From: Akkermansiaceae bacterium
GTDB taxonomy: Bacteria > Verrucomicrobiota > Verrucomicrobiia > Verrucomicrobiales > Akkermansiaceae
Length of the DNA stretch: 64,000 bases
Reading direction: 5' to 3'
Assembly (NCBI GenBank): GCA_947462535.1
Contig: CANHPN010000007.1
Location: 1 to 64,000 of the forward strand
This document shows positions 34,774-37,754 of this stretch, in pieces; position 1 is the stretch's first letter; every line of letters starts with the position of its first letter. The translations under genes were made by a program, and so were the position numbers. Below the pieces are notes generated by a model, which made no database searches, was not told where the DNA came from, and saw only the letters and a list, made by a program, of their open reading frames with translations.

Positions 34774-35205
34774 TCAGCCGCAGCATCCGCCGCCGCCACC
34801 ACCACCGCCGCAGCAACCGCCGCCTTTGTCAGCGAGCTCCTCCGCAGTCGGCACCCGGCCGAGCTCGATCGTGCTGCCGATGTATTTGCCGATCTCCTTC
34901 TGCAACGTCTCCAGTTCGCGCTGGGCGGAGAGGAAATCGCGGGCGATCTCGTTTTCGAAAAGCGCGTCACGGGCACTTTCAAACTCGCGGATTTCCGACG
35001 CGCCGAGCTCGACGCCGGCGTGTTGTTTGTGGTGGAGCTCCTCGCCGCGCTCGTGGACGCTTTGATATTGGAGCCGGGCCGAATCGTCGCCCAAGAAGCG
35101 CTCGACGTCAGCTTGAAGCTTGAGGAATGAAGGATCACTGGCGATCTGGGCGCACAGTTCCTTGGTTTTTACGATCACGGCGGAGTCTTCGGCAACAATG
35201 GACAT
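34774..35205 (-). CDS. YlbF-family protein with a Gly-Cys tail
   Basis: 143 residues from the ATG at 35205. The helical body has the YlbF/YmcA layout: a first helix with VIVKTKELCAQIASDPSFLKLQADVERF and a later helix pair (ENEIARDFLSAQRELETLQKEIGKYI). In Bacillus such proteins act in RNA decay/competence control. The C-terminus ends GGGCCGGGGGGGGCCG, a run of Gly with two Cys pairs, which is not part of the Bacillus proteins and could bind metal or an Fe-S cluster. An in-frame ATG at 35292 would add about 29 residues. Confidence 0.85.
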   Translation of the reverse strand: MSIVAEDSAVIVKTKELCAQIASDPSFLKLQADVERFLGDDSARLQYQSVHERGEELHHKQHAGVELGASEIREFESARDALFENEIARDFLSAQRELETLQKEIGKYIGSTIELGRVPTAEELADKGGGCCGGGGGGGGCCG

Positions 35206-35337
35206 GTCGCTGCATAACCTTGCGGAATCCGGCTGGCAACGGACATTTACAGGAATTTTTCCCGAGCTGGATTCCTGCGAAAACCACAACAAATGCGTGA
35301 CAGACCCCGCCGCCGGGGCTTCCTTAAAAGCACGCCC

Positions 35338-35751
35338 ATGGCCCTCGAACCTCTCAAAGACGGCATCCGCTCAAACGTGCGGATCGACTTTTACGGCAAC
35401 GTCCACAAACGCTTGCGAGGCACCGACGCGGACAAGCGCTACGCCACCGAGGTCGCCGTGCTCAAAGTGCTCGAAGAGCGTGGCTGCCCTTACGTCCCCC
35501 GCCTGCTGGAGGAACACCCGGAGGAACTCTACTTCGTTTCCACCAACTGCGGGAAACTGGCGGACCAGATTTCGAAAACCAGATCCGACCAGCTCTTCGC
35601 CAAGCTGGAGCGCGAATACGGCATCCGCCACCTCGACGCCGAGCCGCGCAATATCACCTACTCGGACAAACTCGGCTGTTTCTGCATCATCGACTTCGAG
35701 CTCGCGGAAATCCTGCCGCCGCCGCCCGGCCTCGTCTCGCCCGCTATCTGA
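35338..35751 (+). CDS. Minimal protein-kinase-like protein (137 residues)
   Basis: Only 137 residues, about half a normal kinase domain. Visible kinase-like elements: a beta strand ending in VHKRLRG (Lys24 as possible ATP lysine), a helix with Glu38 (ATEVAVLKVLEERGCPYVP), the catalytic loop RHLDAEPRNI (His98, Asp100, Asn105) and a DFE (Asp119) in place of DFG (CFCIIDFELAEI). The activation segment and the C-lobe helices beyond are missing, as in very small Bud32-like or RIO/KdoK-like kinases. It lies 12 bp before a PP2C phosphatase gene, supporting a kinase/phosphatase pair. Start at 35338 chosen by alignment logic; the frame is open further 5'. Confidence 0.75.
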   Translation: MALEPLKDGIRSNVRIDFYGNVHKRLRGTDADKRYATEVAVLKVLEERGCPYVPRLLEEHPEELYFVSTNCGKLADQISKTRSDQLFAKLEREYGIRHLDAEPRNITYSDKLGCFCIIDFELAEILPPPPGLVSPAI

Positions 35752-35763
35752 CCCCACCCATCC

Positions 35764-36603
35764 GTGACCGAAGCCGCAATCCTTCACTGGGCCGCCCTCA
35801 CCCACAGCGGGTCTCGCAAACCCCGCAACGACGACTCGCTGATCGCCTTCGCCTCGGGGCCAAAAGGTGCCGAAACCCTCCCGGAAACAGGCAGCCACGC
35901 GCTCGCCACCCACGACCTCGTCTTCGCCGTTTCCGACGGCATGGGCGGCAGCAACGCCGGCCACATCGCCTCCTCGATCATCCTCCAACAGATGACTGAA
36001 ATCATCCCGGAAACCTTCAAGGCCGCCGCCTCCGGCCTGTTTCCAGACTCGCTCAGCCACCTCGCCGACGCCCTCCGCTCCATTCACGACGAGATCAACG
36101 CCACCGGCAACGGCAGCGCGGACAAAAACGGCATGGCCGCCACCCTCGCCCTCGCCTGGTTCACCCCGGAAAATCTCTACATCGCCAACGCCGGCGACTC
36201 CCGCATCTACCGCTCCCGCGGCGGCAAGCTCGAACAACTCAGCCGCGACCATACCTACGCCTGGAGCCAATGGAAACGCGGCGAAATCAGCGAAATCCAA
36301 TACCGCTCCCACCCGCGCCGCGCTGCCCTTTACGAAGTGGTCGGCGGCGGCCACGACAAGGTGAACCCACATTTCGCCGCCATCACCTACGAGGTCGGCG
36401 ACTGCTTCCTCGTCTGCTCGGACGGACTCGTGGACGGACTCTGGGAACGCCACATTTCCGACGCCCTCACCAGCTGCTGCGGCACCCCGGCCGCCACCGC
36501 GCAAACACTTCTAAAACGAGCGATCGACAACTCCGGAATCGACGATACAAGCCTCATCGTCATCGCGGTTGCAGCCCCTCCCGGGGGCGAGAATCCCGGC
36601 TGA
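35764..36603 (+). CDS. PP2C-family Ser/Thr protein phosphatase
   Basis: 279 residues from a GTG start. Metal-dependent phosphatase motifs are in order: SGSRKPRNDDSL (first Asp pair), DLVFAVSDGMGGSNAG, MAATLALAWFTPENLYIANAGDSRIYRSRGG, and DCFLVCSDGLVDGLW, with the late IDDTSLIVIAVA motif. The protein is soluble with no sensor domain. It is paired with the upstream minimal kinase-like gene 12 bp away and is therefore likely to reverse its phosphorylations. The C-terminus is short. Confidence 0.95.
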   Translation: MTEAAILHWAALTHSGSRKPRNDDSLIAFASGPKGAETLPETGSHALATHDLVFAVSDGMGGSNAGHIASSIILQQMTEIIPETFKAAASGLFPDSLSHLADALRSIHDEINATGNGSADKNGMAATLALAWFTPENLYIANAGDSRIYRSRGGKLEQLSRDHTYAWSQWKRGEISEIQYRSHPRRAALYEVVGGGHDKVNPHFAAITYEVGDCFLVCSDGLVDGLWERHISDALTSCCGTPAATAQTLLKRAIDNSGIDDTSLIVIAVAAPPGGENPG

Positions 36604-36737: not shown

Positions 36738-37754
36738 ATGGCCAAATACAAATTGGAATACATCTGGCTCGACGGCTACACCCCCGTGCCGAATCTCCGC
36801 AGCAAAACCCAAGTCAAAGAATTCGCCAGCTTTCCAAGCCTCGAACAACTCCCGATGTGGGGCTTCGACGGCAGCTCGACCCAACAAGCTGAAGGCCGTA
36901 GCTCAGACTGCATGCTCAAGCCGGTCGCCATTTACCCGGACAGCACCCGCAAGAACGGTGCACTCGTGATGTGCGAGGTCATGATGCCCGACGGCGTCAC
37001 CCCGCACCCGACCAACGGCCGCGCCACCATCCTCGACGATCCCGGCGCATGGTTCGGCTTCGAGCAGGAATACTTCCTCTATCAAGACGGTCGCCCGCTC
37101 GGCTTCCCCGCCGATGGCTACCCCGCGCCGCAAGGCCCTTATTACTGCGGTGCCGGCTACAAAGCCGTCGGTGACATCGCCCGCCAGATCGTCGAGGAGC
37201 ACCTCGACCTCTGCCTCGACGCCGGTATCAACCACGAAGGCATCAACGCCGAGGTCGCCAAAGGCCAGTGGGAATTCCAAATCTTCGGCAAGGGCTCAAA
37301 GCGCGCCGCCGACGAGATCTGGACCGCCCGCTACATCCTCAACCGCCTCTGCGAAAAATACGGCATCGACGTGGAATACCACTGCAAGCCGATCAAGGGC
37401 GACTGGAACGGCTCCGGCATGCACGCGAATTTCTCCACCACCTACCTCCGCGAAAAGGGCGGCAAGGCTTACTTCGAAGCTCTCATGGCAGCCTTCGGCG
37501 AACATTGCGAAGAGCACATCGCCGTCTATGGCCCGGACAACCACCTCCGCCTGACCGGTCTCCACGAGACTCAGTCGATCGACAAGTTCACCTACGGCCT
37601 CGCCGACCGCGGCGCGTCCGTCCGGATTCCTCACAGCTTCATGCAGAACGACTACAAGGGCTACCTCGAAGACCGTCGTCCGAACTCGCAAGGCGATCCC
37701 TATCAAATCGCCTCGCGGATTCTCAAGACCATCTCGCTGGTGCCGACTCCTTGA
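36738..37754 (+). CDS. glnII: Glutamine synthetase, type II (eukaryote-like)
   Basis: Ammonia assimilation: glutamate + NH3 + ATP to glutamine. 338 residues, the length of GSII rather than of the about 470-residue GSI. Signatures are the N-terminal LEYIWLDGYTPVPNLRSKT, the DGSST motif in WGFDGSSTQQAEG, GFEQEYFLYQDGRPLGFP, the catalytic metal ligand region NAEVAKGQWEFQIF, GDWNGSGMHANFSTTYLR and the final ADRGASVRIPHSF. GSII lacks the adenylylation Tyr, so control is likely by transcription. A sigma-54-like promoter lies upstream and a terminator follows, suggesting a monocistronic unit. Confidence 0.97.
   Translation: MAKYKLEYIWLDGYTPVPNLRSKTQVKEFASFPSLEQLPMWGFDGSSTQQAEGRSSDCMLKPVAIYPDSTRKNGALVMCEVMMPDGVTPHPTNGRATILDDPGAWFGFEQEYFLYQDGRPLGFPADGYPAPQGPYYCGAGYKAVGDIARQIVEEHLDLCLDAGINHEGINAEVAKGQWEFQIFGKGSKRAADEIWTARYILNRLCEKYGIDVEYHCKPIKGDWNGSGMHANFSTTYLREKGGKAYFEALMAAFGEHCEEHIAVYGPDNHLRLTGLHETQSIDKFTYGLADRGASVRIPHSFMQNDYKGYLEDRRPNSQGDPYQIASRILKTISLVPTP

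Follow-up and report, generated by a model that had tools for sequence, protein, structure and literature searches.

The window, the whole 64,000-nucleotide stretch of Akkermansiaceae DNA that was analysed, holds on its forward strand genes for a very short kinase-like protein (the mini-kinase), a PP2C-type phosphatase and a eukaryote-type glutamine synthetase (GSII). The three genes and the principal mini-kinase residues are listed in Table 1. ORF calling places H98, D100, N105 and DFE of the 137-residue protein where the original prediction had them, and confirms its PP2C gene 12 bp further on. An alternative in-frame ATG at 35293, 45 bp upstream, would give 152 aa, but alignment of relatives puts the kinase start near 35338. 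On the opposite strand (34774-35292) lies a YlbF/YmcA-type gene (Pfam Com_YlbF, 2.7e-11) with a Cys/Gly-rich tail; within the genus it diverges from the kinase gene, it adjoins GSII in the loci L221 and L223 of genus g21, and is possibly a further member of the neighbourhood.

Table 1. Genes and mini-kinase residues of the locus (window coordinates; fractions refer to aligned relatives)
Feature	Position	Strand	Description	Basis
Mini-kinase gene	35338..35751	+	ATG start, 137 aa; kinase-like fold, chain ends just past DFE	ORF call, alignments, model
K24 codon	35407..35409	+	beta3 lysine, K72 in PKA numbering; 130/130	Alignment and order of model elements
E38 codon	35449..35451	+	alphaC glutamate, E91 of PKA; 130/130	
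Catalytic loop H98-L-D100-A-E-P-R104-N105	35629..35652	+	H98, D100, R104 and N105 each 130/130	
DFE motif D119-F120-E121	35692..35700	+	130, 129 and 130 out of 130	
PP2C-type phosphatase gene	35764..36603	+	GTG start, 279 aa; Pfam PP2C_2	
Glutamine synthetase, eukaryote type (GSII)	36738..37754	+	338 aa; proposed partner; Pfam Gln-synt_C and Gln-synt_N	

The mini-kinase and its PP2C partner

Relatives of the mini-kinase were found in 55/59 genomes of a set covering genus and order and in 139/286 genomes of the class sample, with identities of ~42-96%; this conservation is far beyond chance. Most are standalone proteins of 160 aa or less (111/130), whose median length is 137 aa. In addition to the invariant residues of Table 1, P54, T107 and Y108 are present in all 130 aligned sequences, and the one deviation at F120 is an F-to-L change. 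Three cysteines (C50, C71 and C116, in 129, 124 and 124 of the 130) were considered as a conserved site, and no such claim is made because several fused forms have lost C50. A separate set of 61 relatives includes L195 (5992-7206), a fused protein beside GSII in which the catalytic Asp is lost (D100N, giving HxN for HxD) along with R104 (R104E); the same MAG holds an intact copy (L167), and by its sequence the L195 protein is a candidate natural pseudokinase.

An AlphaFold2 model of the mini-kinase (pLDDT 91.3, pTM 0.84) begins with three strands and a long helix, continues with two more strands and another helix, and closes with the catalytic loop and DFE hairpin, after which the chain ends at residue 137; the alphaF region and the C-terminal substrate lobe are absent. 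Foldseek returned 365 PDB chains at E ≤ 0.001, the matches listed being kinases. The kinase fold of the original prediction is thus recovered (pLDDT 91), as is its mostly missing C-lobe, the model stopping just past DFE. Foldseek ranks the RNA kinase Ark1 first (8yv5, E 2.5e-7), which aligns with Z 11.4-11.5 over 112-113 residues; the top Z scores among the matches listed belong to CDKL1 (12.9), PRPK (12.3; 128 residues, rmsd 3.6) and RIO2 (12.2; 120 residues, rmsd 3.1), scores within 1 of each other being treated as tied. Kdo-type and WbdD-type kinases do not appear among the fold matches listed, an absence that carries no weight.

The protein-kinase-like (PKL) superfamily is described, in the part of PMC1821047 on its key residues, by ten positions that include K72, E91, P104, H164, D166, N171 and D184, nine of the ten being altered or lost in some family. 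Seven of these correspond, by our assignment, to K24, E38, P54, H98, D100, N105 and D119, each present in 130/130 sequences; the other three, G52, H158 and D220, have no conserved counterpart (G9 in only 51/130, residue 92 variable, alphaF region absent). Profile searches gave partial resemblances to several families. The Pfam APH model (PF01636) matches the window kinase at 22.4 bits, below its cut-off of 23.2, over residues 84-127, the catalytic-loop stretch only. At E ≤ 0.05 this model touches 47/47 diverse members (best 6.2e-9) and Kdo (PF06293) 36/47 (best 3e-8; the window protein is not among them); RIO families are absent from the Pfam matches of the 47 at this threshold. A class III lanthionine synthetase model touches 41/47 and Bud32 37/47. 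The best NCBIfam score is that of archaeal Bud32 (arch_bud32), at 13.2 bits against a cut-off of 125. From these profile scores, the mini-kinase is, as judged from its sequence, a separate small family within the PKL superfamily. Assignment to a Bud32, RIO or KdoK type, as originally suggested, is unsupported as stated, the profile scores lying far below the cut-offs or not being shown above them. The mini-kinase shares a minimal kinase fold with Bud32/PRPK and RIO; it is, however, shorter by the part past DFE, has different partner genes and scores far below the Bud32 cut-offs.

Two candidates for distant membership were set aside. G442, judged by its own sequence, has a receiver domain followed by a kinase domain of the ordinary type. 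G473 (L216, 1636-3003) has a different context: its mini-kinase domain (HRD..N, DFE; kinase-profile E 1.2e-11) forms the C-terminal part of a methyltransferase in a sugar/glycan locus, a second role for so short a kinase domain.

The window PP2C scores 54.5 bits with Pfam PP2C_2 (cut-off 24) and 145.1 bits with the Stp1/IreP equivalog NF033484, below the 230 required. Residues D24, D58, D220 and D260, which we take to be the positions aligned with PP2C metal-binding motifs, are kept in 180-181 of 181 sequences. In three overlapping sets of loci, a PP2C gene lies directly downstream of the kinase on the same strand, or is fused to it, in 27/30 loci of the genus, in 90/100 further loci of the order and class (15 fused), and in 60 of the best 80 of 540 confirmed relatives from a scan of named genomes (39 of the 80 fused). 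These best 80 comprise 78 Verrucomicrobiota by title, one entry titled 'Bacterium' only and one further locus (L210, see below), and they include the culturable genera Luteolibacter, Haloferula and Persicirhabdus. The kinase/PP2C pairing thus holds throughout the class, with fusion of the two in some lineages, and neither outcome named as refuting the original prediction (no kinase fold, or a pair that is not conserved) came about. A model of one fused protein (L169; pLDDT 90.5, pTM 0.87) suggests that its two domains have a fixed orientation; in structural comparison its PP2C half reaches Z ~31 with PP2Cs of bacteria, cyanobacterial tPphA being among the close folds.

The phosphatase is retained where the kinase has moved away from it. 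Ten genomes from the genera g19 and g21 have an isolated kinase gene, but a PP2C of the module kind is present in 10/10 (E 2.1e-50 or better), divergent from and adjoining GSII in nine of them (the exception is G279). The same arrangement, with the kinase apart and PP2C beside GSII, is found within the genus in G002, G012 and G023, and G010 has a PP2C fragment at a contig end, beside GSII. Across two sets of kinase-bearing genomes searched, PP2C was found in 15/15 and 14/14. The window PP2C is only ~36% identical to the GSII-divergent PP2C of G002, G012, G023, g19 and g21; given this low identity, an exchange of PP2C lineages inside the family is possible.

Association with eukaryote-type glutamine synthetase

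The nearest solved relative of the window synthetase in a PDB search is 4bax (E 5.4e-94), which, like the eukaryotic entries, we take to be a GSII enzyme. The window enzyme is the sole glutamine synthetase (GS) found in this genome with Pfam Gln-synt_C. Among the 286 genomes of the class sample, which are related so that counts are not independent, kinase and GSII (E ≤ 1e-60) occur together in 138 and are both missing from 144; a kinase alone was found in one and GSII alone in three, for totals of 139 with kinase and 141 with GSII. Joint absence of adjacent genes from a draft genome can reflect a single gap, as perhaps in G168 and G175. In the first set, G024, G025, G033 and G042 lack the kinase and also GSII (E ≤ 1e-30) and PP2C (E ≤ 1e-15), at completeness values of 96% for G042 and 57-86% for the other three.

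The genes are also physically linked. GSII lies within 2.5 kb of 112/140 kinase copies; in 101 of these cases it is upstream and divergent, on the other strand, and in 11 it is downstream with the same orientation as the kinase. For 27 of the 140 it is elsewhere in the genome, and for one there is none. G294 has two kinases and two GSIIs, and both pairs are linked. When the ORFs of 100 loci were clustered in an unbiased way, kinase/PP2C and GSII (with antisense shadows) made up the dominant groups. Kinase, PP2C and GSII are kept even where the genes have separated, which we count in favour of their forming one module. The 'self-contained' switch of the original prediction therefore needs amending, as it had left out GSII, the third gene with which the pair is associated.

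Presence of the module switches within genera. Both genes are present in G088 and neither in G119 (g47), both in G285 and neither in G114 (g61), and both in G151 and neither in G075 or G084 (g40; the latter two genomes are 0.9 Mb each, with no GS found). Two less safe switches are g30 (G168) and g94 (G175), in which GS of any kind was not found and one gap could explain the absence. Such concordant gain or loss within genera points to an association beyond shared descent.

The GSII-only genomes are G089, G185 and G273. G273 (g51) has GSII without kinase or PP2C, a pattern for which a gap is possible, and its congener G093 has all three genes. G089 and G185 are also without a module PP2C (best E 4.8e-14 and 2.4e-8). 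In G185 (L213, 1819-6561) GSII sits between two AmtB-like genes, followed by a PII gene. The reverse case is G181, where both kinase and PP2C are present; a search of the genome found no GS, nor is there a GSII in the 4 kb upstream of the kinase on its 6,076-base contig, and it is either a real exception or a misassembly. A planctomycete-titled contig (L210, 4831-7225; Pirellulaceae KatS3mg111) carries GSII and then kinase and PP2C, after Na+-NQR-like genes, with the kinase and PP2C reading frames broken; this suggests transfer of the whole unit, unless the contig is misassigned.

What genomes without the module use instead was surveyed by GS model search in 80 genomes, 59 drawn from a group of 124 non-module genomes and the remainder chosen. 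Non-module genomes mostly have frames of ~470-560 aa (E near 1e-130 to 1e-142) or ~720-790 aa, which on length and score we take to be GSI and GSIII, respectively. In the same search GSII was the only GS in 10/15 module genomes. Strong GlnE matches (E ≤ 1e-40) were found in 26/32 non-module vs. 6/38 module genomes; frames of ~900-1100 aa with weaker matches, near 1e-5, probably encode GlnD. Five of the six non-module genomes without GlnE (G060, G077, G099, G127 and G155) have GSIII-type frames, and GSI is present in G080 and G088, the two of the six GlnE-bearing module genomes in which it was sought. From these distributions, GlnE goes with GSI and the mini-kinase/PP2C pair with GSII.

Proposed switch and competing explanations

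We propose, with a probability of roughly 0.6, that the module is a dedicated reversible phosphorylation switch for GSII or for a protein that directly controls GSII. The mini-kinase would use ATP to phosphorylate GSII or such a protein, the PP2C would remove that phosphate, and in bacteria that assimilate ammonia through GSII the switch would fill the place that GlnE adenylylation holds for GSI. We infer kinase activity, an effect that is probably inactivation of GSII, and a sensed signal that is probably nitrogen status. As the usual substrate-binding lobe is missing from the kinase, GSII and/or PP2C probably supplies the substrate surface. That GSII itself is the direct target is held with moderate confidence. 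The full picture is of a GSII phospho-switch with a GlnE-like role in GSII bacteria of the class, built from a PP2C and a kinase that would be among the smallest active ones known, the two often joined in a two-headed protein, with the kinase borrowing its substrate lobe from target or partner; it falls just short of an even bet.

A search for the modified residue covered 131 GSIIs, of which 130 are module-side (some near-duplicates) and one is the full-length non-module GSII of G185; no Ser or Thr was both invariant in the module GSIIs and missing from G185. T234, C216, Y245, H299 and Y309 are enriched in module GSIIs and were rejected as marks, with module-bearing exceptions such as L229, where kinase, PP2C and GSII are together.

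The switch could instead act on Ser49 of the PII T-loop, as PphA does in some cyanobacteria. PII was present in 23/23 module genomes tested, Ser49 in 30/30 module PII sequences (30 loci were read per search, a subset of PII copies), some loci have PII and AmtB genes in the vicinity of the module, and the tPphA-like fold of the PP2C half would suit this substrate. A 2015 statement in PMC4285133 has phosphorylated PII dephosphorylated by PphA with the kinase unidentified; PMC11863333 further reports that loss of SpkB lowers Ser49 phosphorylation. Ser49 is equally present in non-module sequences (32/32), as is PII in 20/23 non-module genomes, so that PII does not track the module as GSII does, and Ser49 was rejected as a mark of it. 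With a PII group at just 11/100 loci in the ORF clustering as well, we regard action on PII as unlikely.

We give similarly little credence to a reading without phosphotransfer, in which the kinase would serve chiefly as a sensor or scaffold that binds nucleotide and regulates GSII or PP2C by binding. The absent C-lobe past DFE would fit such a role, as would L195, which despite D100N and R104E is still found beside GSII; against it, the catalytic residues are kept in 130/130 other relatives and the PP2C aspartates in 180-181 of 181 sequences.

An RNA kinase resembling archaeal ArkI, which phosphorylates tRNA, with the PP2C acting elsewhere, would leave the tie to GSII unexplained, and the known eraser for ArkI is KptA, not a PP2C. 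ArkI (Ark1, AQ578 family) is the top Foldseek match, is small (171-173 residues in the PDB chains) and, in the part of PMC9095486 on its motifs, likewise has DFE for DFG. The same source gives it HGQ for HRD, a specific alpha6 and a longer alpha7 with YKR, while the mini-kinase keeps HxD and its model, ending just past DFE, has no further helix and hence no alpha6, alpha7 or YKR; this reading is accordingly very improbable. Equally improbable is that the protein belongs to the APH/choline kinase group and phosphorylates a small molecule of nitrogen metabolism. Although APH is the Pfam model that touches all members and the window protein lies just under its cut-off, the match spans a short stretch around the catalytic loop, the model lacks a C-terminal substrate lobe, and a Ser/Thr-type PP2C partner, often fused, would point to a protein substrate.

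Relation to known regulatory systems

For GSI, regulation of the bacterial enzyme by covalent modification is textbook knowledge; to our knowledge no dedicated kinase/phosphatase pair is known for GSII. No description of a kinase/PP2C/GSII module was found in the open-access literature searched. The proposed switch would resemble GlnE in being a dedicated, reversible covalent control of GS, with GlnE found mostly alongside GSI and the module alongside GSII; the two differ in their enzymes, in the GS family and in chemistry (proposed phosphorylation vs. adenylylation).

In AceK, a single active site serves both reactions. AceK is comparable in that kinase and phosphatase reside on one regulatory protein for one central metabolic enzyme (in the account of AceK given in PMC6591243), while the fused forms described here join separate mini-kinase and PP2C domains and the proposed target is GS, not isocitrate dehydrogenase. 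In the cyanobacterial PII/PphA system, too, the PP2C gene involved in nitrogen control has a kinase gene (spkI) as its neighbour, and the PP2C fold is the same; the link here, however, is to GSII, and SpkI is an ABC1-type kinase described as dispensable for PII phosphorylation in the passages of PMC11863333 that concern it. The nearest working parallels are AceK acting on isocitrate dehydrogenase (PMC6591243) and PphA acting on PII (PMC4285133).

The GSII of G185, which occurs without kinase or module PP2C, offers a natural control for the role of the module. If the proposed switch is real, it would account for the control of ammonia assimilation across a bacterial class, and the mini-kinase would represent a kinase cut down to its catalytic core, with fused and split forms provided by nature.
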